Assembly: GCF_002277025.1 (NCBI RefSeq)
Contig: NZ_NIWD01000009.1
Span: 389,232 to 453,231, forward strand
Direction of reading: 5' to 3'
DNA from: Sphingopyxis sp. GW247-27LB
GTDB taxonomy: Bacteria > Pseudomonadota > Alphaproteobacteria > Sphingomonadales > Sphingomonadaceae
Length of the DNA stretch: 64,000 nucleotides
Program-made: the position numbers and the translations under genes
Shown: positions 3,310 through 48,949 of the stretch, piece after piece
Layout of the letters: every line of letters begins with the position of its first letter
Position numbering within the stretch: the stretch's first letter is position 1
Notes under the pieces: model-generated
What the model saw: the letters and a program-made list of their open reading frames with translations, nothing else
The model's database searches: none
Told to the model about the DNA's origin: nothing

Positions 3310-3410
3310 CGTTCACTTCGAACAGACGAGAGAAACAAGTTTCGAGTTCCAATTCGGCAGACGCTGCAACGGCGGTTGCCAGCAAGGGAGCGCGACCTTA
3401 CCACCCGAGT

Positions 3411-4097
3411 GTGGAACCGCTCAGCTTCGACATGTTTCAGTGGATGGGCTCCGAGGCGCGCGCCGCCTTCGAGGGGGCGGCACATCTTATCGACCGGCCC
3501 GCGGGATCGCTGATCTATGCCGAAGGCGACGAGGGCGACACGATGTTCCGGATCCGAAGCGGAGCCGTCCGCTTGACGGTACTGCGGGATGACGGGCGAG
3601 AGCTTCTCTTCCAAATCTATCATGCTGGCGGGTGCTTCGGCACCAGCAGTGTCGTGGATGGCGGAAAGCGCCCGCAGACGGCCGAGGCCTATGAGGATTG
3701 CAAGCTGGAGGTCGTGGACGGGAGGCAAATTGCTGCCCTGCGTGCTGCCCATCCCGATCTCAACGACGCGATGTTACGGCTGCTGAGCATGAACATGCGC
3801 CTGCTCATCGACTATTTCGCCGGCTCGAACCTCGACGGGATCGTTGCATGGCTTGCACAGCGCCTTGAGGAAGCAGGTCGCGCCTTCGGCAAGGAAACGA
3901 GCGAAGGCGTGCTACTTACAAAGCCCCTGTCGCAATCGGAGTTCGCGGCGATGGTCGGAACTTCGCGGCAGACGGTCAACAAGGCGCTCGCCGAACTGCG
4001 CGGGCGCGGCCTGATCGCGAGCCGCGGCCGATATCTACTCATCCCCGATCTCGACGAGCTCAAGGCCGTCGGCGAGCGCGGCTTGGGACCCGGCTGA
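3411..4097 (+). CDS. Crp/Fnr family transcriptional regulator
   Basis: 228 residues, starting at a GTG. Residues about 15-125 form a cyclic-nucleotide-binding-type beta-roll (GSLIYAEGDEGDTMFRIRSG, then FGTSSVVDGGKR); a long dimer helix follows, then a winged helix-turn-helix with SQSEFAAMVGTSRQTVNKAL as the recognition element. No N-terminal cysteine cluster is present, so it is not an oxygen-sensing FNR with an iron-sulfur cluster; the effector is unknown. It lies between the dioxygenase and the acyl-CoA dehydrogenase operon, and a perfect palindrome of TGTCA-N6-TGACA type sits just after it, so local control of the catabolic genes is likely. Confidence 0.9.
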   Translation: MEPLSFDMFQWMGSEARAAFEGAAHLIDRPAGSLIYAEGDEGDTMFRIRSGAVRLTVLRDDGRELLFQIYHAGGCFGTSSVVDGGKRPQTAEAYEDCKLEVVDGRQIAALRAAHPDLNDAMLRLLSMNMRLLIDYFAGSNLDGIVAWLAQRLEEAGRAFGKETSEGVLLTKPLSQSEFAAMVGTSRQTVNKALAELRGRGLIASRGRYLLIPDLDELKAVGERGLGPG

Positions 4098-7880: not shown

Positions 7881-9223
7881 TCGCTGCAACCAACCCAGCG
7901 ATCGCGGCGGATTCCGCCGAAGGCCCGGACGTGGGTAGCCACCGTGCATGGAGCGCGCTTGTCCTGCTCAGCCTCCTTTACATCATCTCGTTCGTCGATC
8001 GGCTGGTGCTTGCGCTCCTCGTCGAGCCGATCAAGGCCGACCTCGGGGTCAGCGACGTCCAGATCGGGCTCCTGATCGGCACGTCCTTCGCCATCGTCTA
8101 CGCGCTTACGGGTCTGCCTCTCGCCAGGCTCGCCGACACACGCAGCCGCCGAATGCTTATTTTTGCAGGTGCTCTGCTATGGGGAATCAGCACGTTTGCC
8201 GCCGCTTACGCCAACAGCTTCCTGATGCTCGTCATCCTTCGCATCGGCGTTGCGGTTGGCGAGGCAGCGCTGGTCCCAGCCGCCATGTCGATCCTGTCGG
8301 ACCTGTTTGCGCCGAGCAAGCGGGCCCTGCCGATCAGCATTTTTGTCATGGTAGGCGTCTGCGGCGGATCGGGATCGATGCTGATTGGCGGCGGCGTCCT
8401 TCAGTTTGCTGCCGAAGCCGCAAGCCTTCCTCTCGTTGCAGACATCAGCCCCTGGCGTCTGACCCTCATTCTGGTCGGCGCGCCGGCCATATTTCTTGCG
8501 CTGCTGACGCCGCTTGTCCTGCCTCGAATGGCTCCGGCGGTCGGCCCAAGCACGGGCGCGTCACTCGGCGACGTCAGCCGGCATTATGTAGACCACAAAA
8601 AGACCTATATCGGATTTTATACGGTCACCGCCCTAGTCTCAGCGATCAACTTCAGCATATTGACCTGGTACCCGACGCATCTCATCCGGTCCTATGGTCT
8701 CGAAGCACCCGTCGCTGGGTATCAGTTTGGGACCGTGGGAGTCGCCACCAGTCTCGCCGGTGGTTTGTTGCTGCCCTATATCGCCCGCCGCATGGTCGCT
8801 CGGCAGCGCTTTGACTCCACGCTGACGATCGCGCTCACCGTCTGTTGCGTCTCCTCGCCGCTCCTCATCGGCTCGCTTTTCGCTCCGAACCCGTTACTGG
8901 CGCTCGCGATTGCCGCTATACCTTTCACGCTTCAGTTCGGCCTGGGTATCCTGTTGGCAGCCACCGCTCCACTCTTGGCTCCCCCACAAATCCGTGCCCA
9001 ATTAGTGGCAATCTTCTTCTTGTTCCTGTCGCTCATCGGTCTCGGGATCGGTCCCACGCTCGTCGCTTGGTTCGCGGAAAATCTGGGCATACTTGGCGGG
9101 TCGGTTCCGGCTGCACTCGCATTGATCGTCCTGATCTTCGCGCCGATACAAATCGTAGCAATTCTGCGCACGAGAGATGCTTTTGCACGGAGCCATGAGT
9201 ACGCGATGCGTGCAGACGCTTAG
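7877..9223 (+). CDS. MFS transporter
   Basis: 448 residues with about 12 hydrophobic segments. The first loop motif between helices 2 and 3 reads GLPLARLADTRSRRMLI, a recognisable version of the MFS GxLaDrxGRR signature. The charged start of helix 1 (YIISFVDRLVLALLVEPIKADLGVSD) is typical of the aromatic-acid and spinster-like branches common in sphingomonads. The gene starts in an ATGA overlap with the hotdog protein and is the last of the operon. Local GC is clearly lower than in the housekeeping genes. It may import the substrate or an intermediate across the inner membrane; no ligand can be assigned. Confidence 0.88.
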   Translation: MIAATNPAIAADSAEGPDVGSHRAWSALVLLSLLYIISFVDRLVLALLVEPIKADLGVSDVQIGLLIGTSFAIVYALTGLPLARLADTRSRRMLIFAGALLWGISTFAAAYANSFLMLVILRIGVAVGEAALVPAAMSILSDLFAPSKRALPISIFVMVGVCGGSGSMLIGGGVLQFAAEAASLPLVADISPWRLTLILVGAPAIFLALLTPLVLPRMAPAVGPSTGASLGDVSRHYVDHKKTYIGFYTVTALVSAINFSILTWYPTHLIRSYGLEAPVAGYQFGTVGVATSLAGGLLLPYIARRMVARQRFDSTLTIALTVCCVSSPLLIGSLFAPNPLLALAIAAIPFTLQFGLGILLAATAPLLAPPQIRAQLVAIFFLFLSLIGLGIGPTLVAWFAENLGILGGSVPAALALIVLIFAPIQIVAILRTRDAFARSHEYAMRADA

Positions 9224-9299
9224 GCATATAACAAGACACAATCCGGAGCGCTCGAAGCGCGCTTCGTCTTCCAATTCAGTATCCGCTTTCAGGCACACG
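9224..9299. other. Intergenic start of the island-edge decay zone
   Basis: This stretch and the sequence up to the tRNA at 9937 contain no full-length conserved gene. The zone holds the recombinase remnant and the short gene described next, then about 215 bp (9722-9936) with no gene I can support and an AT-rich run at 9904-9930 beside the tRNA 3' end. Confidence 0.5.
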
Positions 9300-9560
9300 C
9301 AGGTCGAAGCCGGAACGGCCGACATCAGGCGCCTACCCGCCGTTAGCCGTCGAGCAATTTCCTTAAGTGGCGTTCCGGCATCCCGCGGCAATCGGTATGT
9401 CGAGCGCCTGGCCTATCTCGCGTCCGATATCACTATCGCCATTCTCGATGGCGATCAGCCCAAAGACAGTATCCAGCCGCAGTGGACCAGGCTTCTGGCA
9501 CTCCCACTCGGGGACGAGCAGCGTCAACTGCCGGGACTTACGCAAACCGGATCCGGCTAA
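9300..9560 (+). pseudogene. Serine-recombinase C-terminal remnant
   Basis: In the plus frame ending at the TAA at 9558-9560, the translation contains NRYVERLAYLASDITIAILD followed by GDQP and later LALPLGDEQRQLPGL. From memory this matches the C-terminal tail of site-specific serine recombinases, which commonly reads YV-R-L-LAPDI-EAIL-G-QP and ends near LPL-W-EQR-LGF. Nothing resembling the catalytic or zinc domains precedes it, and the sequence before 9350 looks unrelated, so this is a decayed fragment. It supports past mobility of the left-hand block. The match is by eye and needs a profile search. Confidence 0.45.
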
Positions 9561-43675: not shown

Positions 43676-44323
43676 CTAGGGTTCTCCACCGCCGGGACGC
43701 GCGCGCGTGGTTCGGAACAGCACGGCCTCGATCGCGAGAAAGAGACCCATCGCGCCCGCGGCGGCGACAGGCCCGCCGAGATCGAGGCCGATGCGGACGA
43801 TCACATAGGCGAGGACGATCAGGCTGAGCATCAGCCCCGGCGCGCCGAGTCCGCGCATCGCGGCGCTGCGGTGATAGCCGATCCAGAAGACGAAGCGGAA
43901 CAGGATCCAGACGAAGGCGGTCGCCTCGACCGCGCGCATCCCGTCACCGTCGTCGCTGTAGAGCGCGAGCCCGAAAAGCGCCGCCGTGAACAGGATCAGT
44001 TGCTCGAGCGTGTTCTGCAGATAACGCTGATTGACCCGCAGGCGCCGGGTCTCGTAGCCGGCCAGCGGGTCGAAGGCGGGCGATTGCAGCCGCTCGTGCG
44101 CGACCGCCTCTACGCCCATCGCAAGGCAGAAGAAAACCGCGAGGCACCAGCATTTGAAGGCGAAGGTCAGCCGGTCGGCGACCGTCTCCATCTCGGCGAG
44201 TGGCGGCGCGAGGTGACGGATCGCGAGCCAGAGCGCAGCGGCGACGACAGCCGAGGCGGCGATGGCCCCGATCCCCTTTCGGCGCTGGCGGCGCCAATCG
44301 GCGGCGACATCCTGCGCTTCCAT
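43676..44323 (-). CDS. MAPEG family membrane protein
   Basis: 215 residues from the ATG at 44323. Four to five membrane spans. The central block RVNQRYLQNTLEQLILFTAALF followed by RAVEATAFVWILFRFVFWIGYH is the MAPEG signature (membrane-associated proteins in eicosanoid and glutathione metabolism), including the E-RV-Q--L-N--E pattern. A glutathione-linked detoxification role is possible for bacterial members, but none is shown. The frame upstream overlaps the usher end and is not used. Confidence 0.82.
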   Translation of the reverse strand: MEAQDVAADWRRQRRKGIGAIAASAVVAAALWLAIRHLAPPLAEMETVADRLTFAFKCWCLAVFFCLAMGVEAVAHERLQSPAFDPLAGYETRRLRVNQRYLQNTLEQLILFTAALFGLALYSDDGDGMRAVEATAFVWILFRFVFWIGYHRSAAMRGLGAPGLMLSLIVLAYVIVRIGLDLGGPVAAAGAMGLFLAIEAVLFRTTRARPGGGEP

Positions 44324-44364
44324 GTCCCTTCTCCCTGCCGGCCTTGATCCGCGCGGCGATCCTA

Positions 44365-47127
44365 TCACGAACCGCCGCCGGCCGCATCCTCGCCGCCCGG
44401 CGGGCCGAGCGCGCCGGCGTCGCCTTCGAGGATCGTCCCGGCGTCGGCAAGCACCCCCGCGAGCGGCTTCAGCGCCAGCGTGCCGAGCCGTACCCGCGGG
44501 CTCGCCTTGCCCGGCATCGCGCTCAGCACGAACGCGGGGTCGAGCCGCAGCGCGGCCGCCGACGCCTTCGCCATCCGCACCGTGTAGCGGCCGTAGGGGA
44601 CGCTTTCGAACAGGAAATAGCCGTCGAATTCGCTGAGCGCCGTGGCGCGCACGCGGCCCTCGGCATCGACGAGCTCGAGGCTCAGCCCCTCGATCGCATT
44701 GCCGCCGGCGCGCATCGCAACCCCTTCGATCTCGCCTGCCGCGCTCATCGGCAGCGCGACGCGCGTCGCGACGCCGGGGCGCGGGGTGACGACGACGCCG
44801 GGAAGTGCCGGCTGGACATAGGGGTCGGGCAGGCTACCCGCGTCGATGCCGATCAACAGCGGGCGGAAGGGTTCGAGCCCGTCGATCACCGCACGCCCGT
44901 CGGCGTCGGTCGCGGCATCGACATAGGCGTTGCCTGCGGTCAGCGGTACCCGCGCGACCGCCGCCTCGCCCGGCTGGCGCACGCCGTCGCCATTGTCGTC
45001 CATGAACACATCGGCGAGCACCTGCCCGCGCCCACCGAGCTTTTCGCTCGACATCCGCCAGCCGCCGCGCGCGGGGTCGGGGCCGAAGCTGAAGGCGAGC
45101 GACAGCGACGCCGCGACCGACCCGTCGCTCGCCATCTCGCCAAAGCCCGATAGCTGCAAGCGCTTGAAACGGCGCGTATAACCGAGCCCGGCGCTCGCAC
45201 GGCCGAGCCCCTTGTCATAGCCGAGTTCGGCGCGCCATTCGGCCTCCCCCTTTCCCGACCATTCGGCGATCGCGGTCAGCCGCGAATCGGCACTCGCGCC
45301 CGCCAGCGCGACGCGCGCCTCGCCGCGCAGCCGGATGCGTCCGATCCGCGCATTGGCGAGCAGGCTGGCGGTCAGGCTGTCGGGCGGATCGGGGCCGAAG
45401 GGCACGTGCGACCGGCTCCAGTCGAGCTGGCCGGTGAAGGTCATCGCGCGAAAGCTCGCCGAGGCGCGCGCGCTGGCGTCGAGGCTCGCGATTCCCGACG
45501 CGCGCTCGGTGCGCGACAGGTCGAGATGGAGCGGCAGCACGCTGCGCCCGAGCTTGACCGGCTGGTCGAGCGAAAGGGAATAGAGGCCGGTCACACCGCC
45601 AAAAAAGCGGTCGGAGACGAAGCCGCCCCAGCCGCGCATCGCGTCGGCGCGCACATAGGTCTCGCCAAAGGCCGCGAGCCAGCTCAGTCGCGCCGCGGCG
45701 GCGCGGTCGTCGGCATAGGATGCCGCGACCTCGAGCAATGACGGCCCGATCGAGCGGCGCAGCGCGGCCTCGCCATAGTTGCGGCGGACATTCTCGATCA
45801 TCAGGCTGTGGGCATAGCCCGCGACCGAGGTCCGCGCGTCGAGTCCGCGCTCGATCGCCAGCGTCCCGCGCCAGCCGCGCCGCCACGGCTGGCGGCGATT
45901 GCCGAATGCGATCAGGTCGGAATTTTCCTGCGCGAACCCCGCCCAATACCAGGTCTGGCGCGGCGGGATCGAATCGATCCCGACCTGCAGCTCCTTGATC
46001 TCGCGCCGGATCTGGCCCTGCGGCCCGTAAAGCACGATCTCGAAGCGGTTCGCGCCATATTGCAGCGGCACGTCGAGAAATTCGTAGCGGCCGTCGCCAT
46101 TGGGGCTCGCGAAGGCGAGCAACTGCCCGTTGCGGTACAGTTCGGCGTCCCAGCCCGCAGGAAGGTCGCCGCGAAAGCTCGTCTTGTCGAAGGCGTCGGG
46201 GCGCTCGACCGGCCGGTTGGTGATCACCGCGCCGCGCCCCGGAGCGCTCTGCGCGACCAGCCCCGTCGACAGCAGCGCGACGTCGCCCGCCGCATAATGG
46301 GTCGCGCGGAGCGGGCCGAGCAGCGTTCCTGCGGGATCGGTGCGATAGAGCCGCATCCGCAGGCTGTCGGGCACCCCCTTCTCGTCCGACGCGAGCCGCG
46401 CGTCGAAACTCTGCCCGAGCGCCTCGCCCGCCGCGAAAATCTCGTAGCGCACCTGGACATAGGAGCCGCCGCGCTCGTCTTTCACCGCGCCCGCCGACGC
46501 GACGACGTCGACCGACGGCGTCGCCCACGCCTGATAGGGCCGCGCCGCCTGCGGCAGGCTCGCGAGGTCGAAGCGCGCGGCGGGGCGGATTCCCGCGGCG
46601 CGCGCGCGGCGTTCGGCCGCGAGCTGGAAGGGTAGTTTCTCCTTCGCGTCGATGCGCAGCACCGCATTGGGCAAGTCGGCGGCGATCGGCACGCCGAGCC
46701 AGTCCTTCAGGTTGGCGAGATCGACGCACCATCCCGCGGGCGTATCGCGGATCGCCGTCGCGGCAATCCGATAGCCCTGGTTCCCCGCGCGCACCTCGCC
46801 CGCGTCGCGGTCAATCGTCAACGCGCGCCGTTCGTCGAAGACCCAGCCCGTTGCGCGGCGCAACTTCCGGTCGACGCGCACCGCGAGGTCGAGCGCGAGC
46901 ACCATGTCGCCCAGGTCGACGCACACCCCCTCGGGCGTGCGATAGCCGCGCACCCCGTCGCCGAGCCGGTACGGACCCGAGCGCAGCTCGAACAGCCAGG
47001 CATCGTCCTCGTTCGGCGCCCACGCTGCGGAAGAAGGAGAAACGGGGCTGGTATCAACGGCTTCGGCGCTGGCGGGCACGAGTCCCGCCAGCGCCAGCGC
47101 GGCGACGATGAAGCGCCCCCACCGCAT
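44365..47127 (-). CDS. Usher-like outer-membrane protein of an alternative chaperone-usher system
   Basis: 920 residues with a signal peptide (FIVAALALAGLVPASAEA). The middle has a beta-domain with FRGDLPAGWDAELYRNGQLL, ASPNGDGRYEFLDVPLQYG and NRFEIVLYGPQGQ, like the FimD plug region, followed by a long run of alternating strands (about 390-690) fitting an outer-membrane barrel. From residue 707 an SdrD/CNA-B-like unit begins (VFMDDNGDGVRQPGEAAVAR), then a carboxypeptidase-regulatory-like repeat at about 795-850. Classical FimD sequence identity is low. It lies 31 bp after a PapD-like chaperone and near a DUF4402 pilin, so secretion and assembly of that fibre is the likely job. Confidence 0.75.
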   Translation of the reverse strand: MRWGRFIVAALALAGLVPASAEAVDTSPVSPSSAAWAPNEDDAWLFELRSGPYRLGDGVRGYRTPEGVCVDLGDMVLALDLAVRVDRKLRRATGWVFDERRALTIDRDAGEVRAGNQGYRIAATAIRDTPAGWCVDLANLKDWLGVPIAADLPNAVLRIDAKEKLPFQLAAERRARAAGIRPAARFDLASLPQAARPYQAWATPSVDVVASAGAVKDERGGSYVQVRYEIFAAGEALGQSFDARLASDEKGVPDSLRMRLYRTDPAGTLLGPLRATHYAAGDVALLSTGLVAQSAPGRGAVITNRPVERPDAFDKTSFRGDLPAGWDAELYRNGQLLAFASPNGDGRYEFLDVPLQYGANRFEIVLYGPQGQIRREIKELQVGIDSIPPRQTWYWAGFAQENSDLIAFGNRRQPWRRGWRGTLAIERGLDARTSVAGYAHSLMIENVRRNYGEAALRRSIGPSLLEVAASYADDRAAAARLSWLAAFGETYVRADAMRGWGGFVSDRFFGGVTGLYSLSLDQPVKLGRSVLPLHLDLSRTERASGIASLDASARASASFRAMTFTGQLDWSRSHVPFGPDPPDSLTASLLANARIGRIRLRGEARVALAGASADSRLTAIAEWSGKGEAEWRAELGYDKGLGRASAGLGYTRRFKRLQLSGFGEMASDGSVAASLSLAFSFGPDPARGGWRMSSEKLGGRGQVLADVFMDDNGDGVRQPGEAAVARVPLTAGNAYVDAATDADGRAVIDGLEPFRPLLIGIDAGSLPDPYVQPALPGVVVTPRPGVATRVALPMSAAGEIEGVAMRAGGNAIEGLSLELVDAEGRVRATALSEFDGYFLFESVPYGRYTVRMAKASAAALRLDPAFVLSAMPGKASPRVRLGTLALKPLAGVLADAGTILEGDAGALGPPGGEDAAGGGS

Positions 47128-47158
47128 CCCGGCCGCGCCTGACTTGTCCGTCCGATTC

Positions 47159-47980
47159 CTATTTCACCACCCGATCGGCCTCGTCGATCGTCGCGCCGCC
47201 GATCTCGCGGTCCTCGCTGTAGCGGATATGCACCGGCCCCTTGAGCGTCGCCGCGACCTCGGGCGGGATGCGCAGCGCCACGCTGCGCCGCCTCACCTCG
47301 GGATAGACCGCGATGCCGCGCGCGACGAGCAGCGGCTCGGCCGCCCCCGGCCGCGTCACCTCGATATCGCCATAGACCGACCGCTCGCCGCTGCGCGTCA
47401 ACTCGAACGCGAACGCCGGCCCGTCGCGCGTCTCGGCGATCCGCGCGTCGCCGATCCGCGCCTCGGCGCCGAGATCGCCGACGCGCACGATCACCGGGAT
47501 GGTGATGCCATAGATGGGGGTGAGCGCGATCGACACCCCCTCGCCCCCCGTTTTCGGCGCCGTCGCGGGCGCCGCGTCGGGCACCGCGCGGAACAGCATG
47601 TGCGCGCGATATTCGCCGGCCGGCGTCCCCTCGGGTACCCGCACCCCGACGCGAATCACCTGCGGCTGATTGGGCGGCAGCGTCACGCGCCGCGGGCTGA
47701 AGGCGATCATGGCGAGCGCCGTCTTCTCGGCCGGCGTCGCTTCGGCCTCGTCGATCTCGTCGAGCCCGCCCTCGGCGGTCATCCGCTTGATCTCGAGGCT
47801 GATGCGATAGGTCGCGGGCTCGGCGCCGATATTGTTGAGCACCACTTCGGTGCCGCGCGATCCGTCGAGGATCAGCCGCGTCGGCGCGACGAGCAGGTCG
47901 CCCGCGGCGTGCGCGGGCAGCGCGGCGGCAGCGAGCGCGGCCGCGAGAAACAGGCGCAAGGCCCCCACAGAACGAAACAT
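47159..47980 (-). CDS. PapD-like periplasmic pilus chaperone
   Basis: 273 residues from the ATG at 47980, preceding the signal peptide (LRLFLAAALAAAALPAHAAG). The mature part begins DLLVAPTRLILDGSRGTEVV, the immunoglobulin-like domain of pilus chaperones, with LNNIGAEPATYRISLE and the G1-strand motif AFSPRRVTLPPNQPQVIRVGV. The C-terminal domain ends RIPPEVAATLKGPVHIRYSEDRE. It would hold DUF4402 pilin subunits in the periplasm and hand them to the usher encoded next. Confidence 0.82.
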   Translation of the reverse strand: MFRSVGALRLFLAAALAAAALPAHAAGDLLVAPTRLILDGSRGTEVVLNNIGAEPATYRISLEIKRMTAEGGLDEIDEAEATPAEKTALAMIAFSPRRVTLPPNQPQVIRVGVRVPEGTPAGEYRAHMLFRAVPDAAPATAPKTGGEGVSIALTPIYGITIPVIVRVGDLGAEARIGDARIAETRDGPAFAFELTRSGERSVYGDIEVTRPGAAEPLLVARGIAVYPEVRRRSVALRIPPEVAATLKGPVHIRYSEDREIGGATIDEADRVVK

Positions 47981-48108
47981 CGGCACGATCCCCACAATCG
48001 CTGGTCGGGACGGCACGCCGCCCCTTTTGGCTGGTCGCGACCAGATAGCGCCAACATGGTTGATATTTCGCTAAGCATGATGCGAGGGGCCGCCTGCGCG
48101 AAACGAAA

Positions 48109-48141
48109 GGGCCGCCGGACGACGCCCGGCGGCCCCTTTTT
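48109..48141 (-). terminator. Strong hairpin between pilin and chaperone genes
   Basis: GGGCCGCCGG (48109-48118) and CCGGCGGCCC (48126-48135) form a perfect 10-bp stem with a 7-base loop. The plus side continues CTTTTTT; on the minus (transcribed) side it reads TTTCGTTT. It lies after the pilin stop and before the chaperone start, so it probably ends most pilin transcripts and limits read-through to chaperone and usher. Confidence 0.7.
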
Positions 48142-48187
48142 TCCGCGGCTGGCGAGGCGCTGGCCTCGCCAGCCGCCTCACAGCGCT

Positions 48188-48697
48188 TTATTGATAATTG
48201 GCGGTGACGTTGAACGTCCCCGAATAATCGCCCGACGCCTGGTTGGCGCCGACGCTCAGCGTGCCGCCGACCTGAAAGCTGCCGCCGACGGTGCCCGGGC
48301 CGTTGGTCAGCGTGACCGAGCTCGCCGAATAGCTGAGCGCGGCGGTCATCGTCCCGCCGAGCGAGCCGTTGAGCGTCACGCTCGAATCGCCGCCGACGAG
48401 CACCACGGCGTTGTTCGTGCCCTGGATGTCGAAATTGGCGGCGGTCGTCGTGCCTGTGCAGGTCAGCCCCGCGCCGCAGCTCACGCCCCCGGCGGTCGAC
48501 ACCGCGACGGTCGAGGCGGTCGCGCCGCTGATGATCGTCGCGAAGTTGAGGTCGCTGGTGTTGGTCAGCGTGATCTGGCGCAGGATCTTGGCCTTGGCCG
48601 TCCCGGTCGCCGAGGCGGCGTGCGCCGCCGACGCGTTCATCGCGAGGGCAGCAAGTGCGGCGCCCGCGAGGGCGCGCTTCATCGTCATGGTGCGCAT
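48188..48697 (-). CDS. DUF4402 domain protein, probable pilin subunit
   Basis: 169 residues from the ATG at 48697 with AAGGGA upstream. A signal peptide (MKRALAGAALAALAMNASAAHA) leads to a small Gly/Ser/Thr-rich all-beta domain with two cysteines in VSCGAGLTCTG. The opening AKAKILRQITLTNTSDLNFA and the ending GDYSGTFNVTANYQ match DUF4402. It is the first gene of a fibre operon with a chaperone and usher-like protein, so it is the likely major subunit. The final alternating beta strand would serve donor-strand exchange; that part is inference. Confidence 0.85.
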   Translation of the reverse strand: MRTMTMKRALAGAALAALAMNASAAHAASATGTAKAKILRQITLTNTSDLNFATIISGATASTVAVSTAGGVSCGAGLTCTGTTTAANFDIQGTNNAVVLVGGDSSVTLNGSLGGTMTAALSYSASSVTLTNGPGTVGGSFQVGGTLSVGANQASGDYSGTFNVTANYQ

Positions 48698-48949
48698 ATG
48701 ATTGGTCCCTTTAAGCAGTCGTGTCGAATGGAAATCCCACCCCATTCGCCTAACCGTTTAGCGCGACAGCCGTTCAGCCTTTGCCAGCGAGCATGGTAAA
48801 CGGCGCGTTAGGGATTAGCGGCCGTCAGCCATATAACTCTTTTTATATCAAATATTTATCTTGATTTCTCCGGGCAGGAAGCGTGCATTTTCTCCCTCTC
48901 GGCGGCCCGCGCCGGGACAAGATCGGCCCTCGTCCGGCGCAGCCGTGCC
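48698..48949 (-). promoter_or_regulatory. Upstream region of the pilin operon
   Basis: 252 bp between the pilin start and the parB stop. It holds an unusually AT-rich run (48835-48870, with TTTTTATATCAAATATTTATC) that contrasts with the surrounding GC-rich genes and is a likely promoter or upstream-binding region for the pilin. No clean -35/-10 pair could be fixed by eye. Confidence 0.4.

Follow-up and report, generated by a model that had tools for sequence, protein, structure and literature searches.

A divergent chaperone-usher gene triad with a DUF4402 subunit in Sphingopyxis

Three neighbouring genes on the minus strand of a 64,000-nucleotide stretch of the Sphingopyxis sp. GW247-27LB genome (contig NZ_NIWD01000009.1, positions 389,232 to 453,231; hereafter, the window) code for a subunit of the DUF4402 family, a chaperone resembling PapD and an usher of 920 residues, and lie where an earlier note, made from the sequence, had placed them. 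Together, these genes very probably specify a chaperone-usher pilus machinery belonging to a lineage apart from the classical, archaic and alternative groups. The earlier note described the locus as a chaperone-usher system that is divergent and includes a DUF4402 subunit; this is borne out by the predicted fold of the usher, the co-conservation of the genes and the separate clade of the ushers. The genes are as follows:

48188 to 48745, minus strand: DUF4402 open reading frame (ORF), 185 aa, the longest ORF
48188 to 48697, minus strand: DUF4402 major subunit (pilin), which likely begins at Met17, a conserved residue of the longer ORF
47159 to 48016, minus strand: periplasmic PapD-like chaperone (ORF, profile and alignment)
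44365 to 47127, minus strand: outer-membrane usher, 920 aa (ORF, profile, model, fold match and tree)

The in-frame ATG at residue 17 of the DUF4402 ORF (48697) is at least 90% conserved among 79 subunits and, judging from this conservation, is likelier to be the actual start of the pilin than the start of the longer ORF. The span given previously, which ended at 48697, matches this likely start codon, although the full ORF reaches 48745.

Conservation of the triad and predicted structures of its products

The co-conservation of the three genes, which had been proposed as a check, holds in 33 of the 34 usher neighbourhoods of the family (Sphingomonadaceae), in 78 of 80 named loci and in 19 of 20 distant loci. 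In the family neighbourhoods, the chaperone is present in all 34 and the DUF4402 gene in 33 (tblastn, E<=1e-3), and 4 additional family loci that were matched via the usher C-terminal domain only contain neither. All 80 named loci encode the chaperone, and the two that lack a DUF4402 gene (L094 and L102) lie at contig ends; these loci are the best 80 of 579 confirmed matches, so that the set is biased to close relatives. Among the distant loci, the chaperone and the DUF4402 gene are each found in 19, with a single locus (L273) containing neither. Of the 119 family genomes, 45 encode the usher at E<=1e-3 and 44 at E<=3e-22; in 30 of them the match is of the window type (E<=3.6e-177), the others being more distant. 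Long matches to ushers of this lineage were also detected in 24 of 387 genomes drawn at the class level (E<=2.5e-88) and in 14 of 397 drawn at the phylum level (E<=7.4e-47), 5 of the latter outside the class, with the cut-offs set after the match lists had been seen; in the raw tallies (40/387 and 62/397), many of the matches are confined to the C-terminal domain. The named cases are Polaromonas (betaproteobacteria), Pseudoalteromonas (gammaproteobacteria), Novosphingobium and Sphingopyxis, with 7 plasmid records in total. In all three plasmid records that were inspected, the DUF4402, chaperone and usher genes are adjacent, the usher being annotated as a carboxypeptidase regulatory-like protein and the subunit as a "DUF4402 domain-containing protein"; the chaperone in the Pseudoalteromonas record is annotated as hypothetical, yet matches PapD_N.

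The usher was modelled with AlphaFold2 on an alignment of 44 relatives (mean predicted local distance difference test score, pLDDT, 86.3; predicted template modelling score, pTM, 0.69). With strands counted and assigned from their DSSP order, without a geometric test, the predicted model contains the barrel that the earlier note had made decisive for its assignment: six barrel strands, a plug of six strands and 18 further barrel strands, i.e., a 24-strand barrel with a plug, followed by two C-terminal beta domains. FimD and PapC follow the same plan, the plug being inserted after the sixth of 24 barrel strands. The domains are located as follows:

46588 to 47001, minus strand: usher N-terminal domain, residues 43-180 (model; unmatched to known usher N-terminal domains)
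46219 to 46527, minus strand: barrel strands 1-6, residues 201-303 (model)
45982 to 46185, minus strand: plug domain of 6 strands, residues 315-382 (model and profile by part)
45079 to 45954, minus strand: barrel strands 7-24, residues 392-683 (model)
44749 to 45033, minus strand: C-terminal domain 1 (CTD1), residues 699-793 (model, VIA-align and profile by part)
44467 to 44745, minus strand: C-terminal domain 2 (CTD2), residues 795-887, the CarboxypepD_reg/SdrD_B match (Pfam, model and VIA-align)

In structure comparison, the first 17 Foldseek rows for this model are all FimD or PapC (E 1.1e-29 to 1.7e-14), followed by SdrD in row 18 (E 3.5e-9) and by other barrels at about 1e-5; similarly, the first 15 VIA-align rows are FimD or PapC (Z 20.6-17.6), with porins next, from Z 14.6. 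The usher is indeed far from FimD in sequence, as had been noted: PF00577 is absent at E<=1, and neither CooC_C (PF15976) nor TcfC (PF16967) was found by Pfam in the window usher, yet the fold matches FimD and PapC. Among the 44 relatives, PF00577 is matched in one, at E 0.02, compared with E 1.3e-30 for an archaic usher (L155), and sequence searches of solved structures, started from the single usher and then from the three profiles, found no chaperone-usher protein.

The subunit matches PF14352 (E 4.8e-27) and consists of a signal peptide, a donor-strand-like ATGTAKAKI segment and a domain with a penultimate Tyr184, which is invariant among the 79 subunits; Gly172 is at least 90% conserved. 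A penultimate Tyr together with a Gly 14 residues from the end is a pilin signature, for which a literature search found no supporting paper. The pilin model (mean pLDDT 84.8) leaves the N-terminal segment unpaired, and its first 27 Foldseek rows and first 28 VIA-align rows are all chaperone-usher subunits, proteins whose Ig-like fold is incomplete and whose donor strand is N-terminal, drawn from all three groups.

Relation to the known chaperone-usher groups

According to two publications (PMC9452303; PMC4654587), chaperone-usher pili comprise three groups with six clades, and the classical and alternative groups are confined to beta- and gammaproteobacteria; archaic systems are present in alphaproteobacteria (PMC4654587). 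In profile comparisons, archaic ushers are nearest to those of the window lineage (E 1.3e-20, 631 columns), followed by alternative (1.5e-10) and classical (1.8e-6) ones; the corresponding values among the known groups are 4e-41 for archaic-classical, 3.3e-21 for archaic-alternative and 4.7e-14 for alternative-classical. In control comparisons, TonB-type barrels with a carboxypeptidase-like domain match the usher over 57 columns only (E 1.4e-4), and profile pairs of unlike components yield nothing better than E 0.018. The archaic match is spread over the barrel with plug (1.6e-9), the plug (1.2e-5) and CTD1 (7.3e-8).

An usher tree of 75 rows was built with IQ-TREE (a short search with Shimodaira-Hasegawa-like approximate likelihood ratio test, SH-aLRT, support only, without bootstrap), including all distant loci but L267 and L273 (18 of 20) and 22 of the 44 alignment rows (12 type A, 10 type B). 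This quick tree groups the 40 DUF4402-type ushers in a single clade (SH-aLRT 100), and the window-lineage ushers fall outside the archaic (12 rows, SH-aLRT 99) and alternative (12 rows, 95) clades, with the classical ushers (5 rows, 100) likewise apart. Six family ushers with weak PF00577 matches (L168, L170, L171, L173, L177 and L178) form a clade of their own (100) beside the archaic one (93); this clade is, perhaps, a further undescribed type.

No PapD-family match was found by Pfam in the window chaperone itself, and 10 of its 43 relatives match PapD_N at E<=0.1 (best 5.5e-6); the chaperone profile matches archaic chaperones with E 8.5e-11 and classical ones with 1.1e-6. Pakharukova et al. 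(PMC4654587) describe classical chaperones as holding the subunit C-terminus via a pair of basic residues that have no counterparts in the archaic ones, and Arg89 as confined to archaic and alternative chaperones. The relevant residues of the window chaperone, all placed by alignment, are these:

47876 to 47878, minus strand: R47
47693 to 47695, minus strand: P108
47606 to 47608, minus strand: R137
47495 to 47497, minus strand: P174

Arg47 falls in the FimC Arg8 column and Arg137 in the EcpB Arg89 column, each being present in 43 of 43 family chaperones and, in a wider set of 14, in 12 and 13, respectively. The position of FimC Lys112 is occupied by Pro (Pro174) in 43 of 43, so that the classical Arg8 and Lys112 pair is absent, and Pro108, a proline found superfamily-wide, corresponds to EcpB Pro60 and is Pro in 42 of 43. 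The archaic Arg sits two columns past Arg137, and a hybrid anchor is thus a reading of the alignment, not of a structure. In CsuC, the carboxylate anchor comprises Arg89, Arg174 and Tyr196; mapping of the latter two (domain 2) onto the window chaperone was attempted and gave no confident placement.

With archaic systems (e.g., Csu, CsuC-CsuD) the window system shares a nearly end-to-end usher profile match, the chaperone match, the order subunits-chaperone-usher and, in part of its relatives, a two-domain protein encoded behind the usher; it differs from them in its own usher clade, DUF4402 subunits, a longer usher N-terminal domain and the Arg at the classical Arg8 position. The alternative (alpha) systems, typified by the E. 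coli common pilus EcpABCD, share the ungapped alignment of Arg137 with EcpB Arg89 and of Pro108 with EcpB Pro60, as well as a weak CarboxypepD_reg match in EcpC, but their ushers form a separate clade, EcpC matches both CooC_C and TcfC, and no second chaperone is encoded in the window. Classical systems (FimCD, PapCD) resemble it in usher fold and in the Arg8 column, whereas the Lys112 column differs and the profile match is the weakest of the three groups.

One alternative is that the system is a divergent archaic (sigma) member that has merely drifted in sequence. For both usher and chaperone, archaic proteins are the nearest by profile, archaic systems occur in alphaproteobacteria (PMC4654587), and some type-B loci share the order subunits-chaperone-usher-two-domain protein with the archaic loci of this analysis. 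Nevertheless, the archaic and DUF4402-type ushers belong to separate clades; archaic and alternative ushers are as close to each other as archaic ushers are to the window type, with archaic and classical ones far closer; the subunits are DUF4402 proteins; and the Arg8 position, Arg in all 43 family chaperones, is Asp, Asn or Thr in 7 of 7 archaic rows. Moreover, archaic-type PF00577 ushers are encoded in 19 of 119 family genomes, with none in the window's genome, which indicates that the window system is parallel to them and not their local version. We therefore consider archaic drift improbable.

Several observations weigh against reading the genes as a chaperone-usher pilus system of a separate lineage. 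The tree leaves the order of the groups open, along with 19 of 72 branches, and includes composition flags on 38 of 75 rows and three very long end branches. The profile E-values vary with the number of rows in each set (44, 12, 13 and 5), and no match emerges between the chaperone profile and the alternative set (probability 1.7%), which consists of 7 rows, 2 of them (L249 and L250) wrong-frame ORFs. In the full-length usher alignments, the root mean square deviation is 9-13.5 Å with both halves aligned, and the usher N-terminal domain, the expected chaperone recruiter, is unaligned in the VIA-align rows and weak against archaic ushers by profile (probability 13%, E 0.0021, not significant alone); CTD2 alone is likewise unmatched by profile to other ushers (probability 3-14%; E 0.015 against archaic ones). 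Finally, the pilin matches are weak singly (best Foldseek E 2.6e-3; best VIA-align Z 7.9, where a Z below 8, by the tool's own word, may mean a common arrangement only).

By analogy with the known systems, we propose that a separate chaperone-usher lineage such as this would operate by donor-strand exchange and produce an adhesive fibre. The DUF4402 subunit would be exported by Sec, whereupon the chaperone would lend it a beta-strand and hold its C-terminus (donor-strand complementation); the usher would receive the chaperone-subunit complex and open its plug, the N-terminal strand of the incoming subunit would displace the chaperone in the preceding subunit, and the fibre would grow outward through the 24-strand pore, with the usher C-terminal domains holding chaperone-subunit complexes on the periplasmic side. 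Alternatively, there might be no pilus, with the usher-like protein secreting DUF4402 proteins as soluble or surface-anchored monomers. This is compatible with a fibre that is so far a prediction, with the single major subunit gene in the window and with the orphan DUF4402 genes elsewhere in the genome; however, model and sequence both fit a subunit with a free N-terminal segment, and chaperone and usher are kept with the subunit at nearly all loci, which makes monomer secretion decidedly improbable.

At the end of the usher, Pfam detects CarboxypepD_reg (residues 800-854) and SdrD_B (807-855), and the SdrD/CNA-B- and carboxypeptidase-like domains had been regarded as an odd addition that might act as an adhesin. 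In the best VIA-align row, the pairing (model residues 187-887 with FimD 125-833) runs through to where FimD ends, which places the supposed decoration on the C-terminal domains that FimD itself possesses. The same Pfam matches recur in 41 of 44 relatives, and E. coli K-12 EcpC has a sub-threshold CarboxypepD_reg match in its own C-terminal domain (749-805, E 1.2e-4, 22.7 bits against a cut-off of 32.3). Thus, the stretch represents the two C-terminal domains usual for an usher, not an addition. The usher profile also matches SdrD among solved structures (E 2.1e-9), which explains the origin of the misleading label. These domains are unlikely to act as an adhesin, since they sit as those of FimD do, recur in relatives and resemble the domain in EcpC, and since the C-terminal domains of ushers lie on the periplasmic side. 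A surface adhesin fused to the usher, to which the families SdrD_B and CarboxypepD_reg, found in surface proteins, and the SdrD match might point, is very improbable given that the position and number of the domains equal FimD CTD1/CTD2, that CTD1 matches archaic ushers by profile (probability 94.6%) and that weak matches of the same kind are present at the equivalent place in EcpC and in the PF00577-type usher L168 (18.8 bits).

A second DUF4402 subunit and candidate tip proteins

The statement that a separate tip adhesin is absent holds for the window; elsewhere, however, some type-B loci have a linked two-domain DUF4402 protein, and the window's own genome has an unlinked second subunit. 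This genome has four DUF4402 genes: one is that of the window, two stand in tandem on a different contig, and the fourth (C15:532916-533434) is separated from the usher gene by about 97 kb. The tandem pair (G000:C1:295690-297157, L035) has no usher match within the 16 kb examined and no chaperone match nearby.

Relatives of the gene on C15 were detected in 30 of 119 family genomes at E<=1.7e-15, a cut-off chosen after the list had been seen. They are present in 29 of 30 genomes with a window-type usher (all except G045) vs 1 of 89 without (G066; Fisher p 2e-25, with kinship not corrected for), and the split at E<=1e-3 is 30/30 vs 6/89. Within one genus (g3), G091 encodes both usher and second subunit, and G002 neither. 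Of these 29 genomes, 5 encode the second subunit no more than 5 kb from the usher, 14 on the same contig at a distance of at least 26.7 kb and 10 on another contig; contig breaks may mask some linkage. Four second subunits with CxxC are encoded beside the triad (L057:11005-11550, L060:11064-11588, L062:4439-4954 and L064:3995-4525), which suggests that linkage was lost, or gained, in other genomes.

The second-subunit alignment covers 30 loci, L301 and L303 having been dropped as wrong-frame ORFs. Directly behind the signal peptide, 25 of 28 readable copies contain CxxC, followed by a stretch of variable length and composition, often Gly/Asn-rich, that replaces the donor-like strand. Since a subunit without a donor strand fits at the tip only, we infer that this protein is a candidate tip subunit. 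The window fibre would then consist mainly of one subunit, which the second one, encoded about 97 kb away, probably joins. Caf1 is a single-subunit polyadhesin system, with one subunit, one chaperone and one usher in an operon and no linked tip adhesin. Its gene content is like that of the window, from which it differs by lineage and, in the present case, by the second subunit encoded elsewhere.

In type-B loci, a different arrangement is observed: in 4 of 14 (L039, L043, L048 and L050), a protein of 333-349 residues with DUF4402 in its last ~130 residues is encoded directly 3' of the usher, and ORFs of 320-365 residues likewise follow several archaic ushers of this analysis. Thus, the window lineage does possess proteins of the tip-adhesin plan. 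By profile, the two-domain proteins match archaic tip adhesins with a probability of 46.5% over 36 columns; the DUF4402 profile aligns to the end of the first domain of these adhesins (probability 44%, E 2.3e-4), a match that we do not count as proof.

We tentatively suggest, as a possibility rather than an expectation, that these systems constitute a fourth major chaperone-usher group, spanning alpha-, beta- and gammaproteobacteria, with DUF4402 subunits, a hybrid Arg8 and Arg89 anchor and, in the Sphingomonadaceae type, a remote, co-inherited tip subunit that has CxxC at its N-terminus and lacks a conserved donor strand.

Neighbouring features, regulation and implications

Four features flank the pilin gene or separate it from the chaperone gene:

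48141 to 48180, minus strand: first hairpin, just past the pilin stop codon (150-nt fold)
48108 to 48138, strand unassigned: second hairpin, terminator- or attenuator-like, with an A-run on one side and a T-rich other side (fold and scan)
48055 to 48079, strand unassigned: conserved 25-bp CATGNTTAGCGAAATATCAACCATG element upstream of the chaperone gene, CtrA-like, 10/12 to TTAA-N7-TTAACCAT
48793 to 48811, minus strand: CtrA-like site upstream of the pilin gene, 10/12 (consensus match)

The 150-nt fold past the pilin stop codon has a z of -4.58 in the window and below -2 in 40 of 45 relatives' stretches (mean -3.75). A scan of the window found no excess of terminator-like sites over shuffles (2 found, 3.1 expected), so the case for the hairpins comes from the folds of the relatives. 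The near-palindromic CATGNTTAGCGAAATATCAACCATG is present in 48 of 78 loci with <=4 substitutions allowed, 41 of the 48 matching TTAA-N7-TTAACCAT at 10/12; upstream of the pilin gene, 23 of 42 loci reach at least 10/12, compared with 21 of 350 random 300-base stretches of the same loci (CtrA consensus and half-site as given in PMC11264516 and PMC3692519). The element pattern has 2 exact matches in the window's genome. A sigma-70-type site at 48727-48698 was dropped because it overlaps the likely pilin start. The pilin may form its own transcript and the chaperone and usher a second one, both under CtrA; given that the loci with the element are close relatives, this regulatory scenario is a lead only. 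The proposal of one operon is doubtful in view of the conserved hairpins and element between pilin and chaperone.

Upstream of the triad are parB, parA, rsmG (gidB) and mnmG (gidA), in identical order in a Sphingopyxis indica record. That record (L315) is labelled as a conjugative plasmid, with rsmG-parA-parB adjoining the triad as on the window's chromosome. On the other side, a MAPEG-family gene (43676-44368, PF01124, E 8.6e-10) lies on the same strand as the usher and overlaps its stop by 4 bases. In Pseudoalteromonas xiamenensis (L314), the triad is flanked by SPOR-annotated proteins (3368-3853 and 8670-9308), the second of which matches SPOR with E 2.8e-7. Four type-B ushers (L038:5350-9207, L040:6260-10117, L041:5253-8855 and L042:5823-9764) are 1200-1313 aa long, with a Pro/Ala-rich low-complexity N-terminal extension of ~330-430 residues behind a hydrophobic start, perhaps a periplasm-spanning linker; in all four, the usher gene overlaps the chaperone stop codon. 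For the three window proteins, the NCBIfam scan gave no match and the PHROGs scan chance-level matches only.

In the open-access PubMed Central literature (subscription journals and preprints being outside this scope), no paper names DUF4402, and, judged by the listings, open-access work on chaperone-usher systems in sphingomonads or on further groups contains nothing on the window system. A further lineage would widen the three-group scheme and give DUF4402 a function, and if the chaperone uses both arginines, this would bear on the origin of the classical anchor from a non-classical one. Recognition of the triad would also correct a labelling trap, given that usher and subunit are mislabelled in the three records inspected. 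If the proposed system is real, it would provide environmental sphingomonads, a group with several members employed in the breakdown of pollutants, with a candidate organelle for adhesion.

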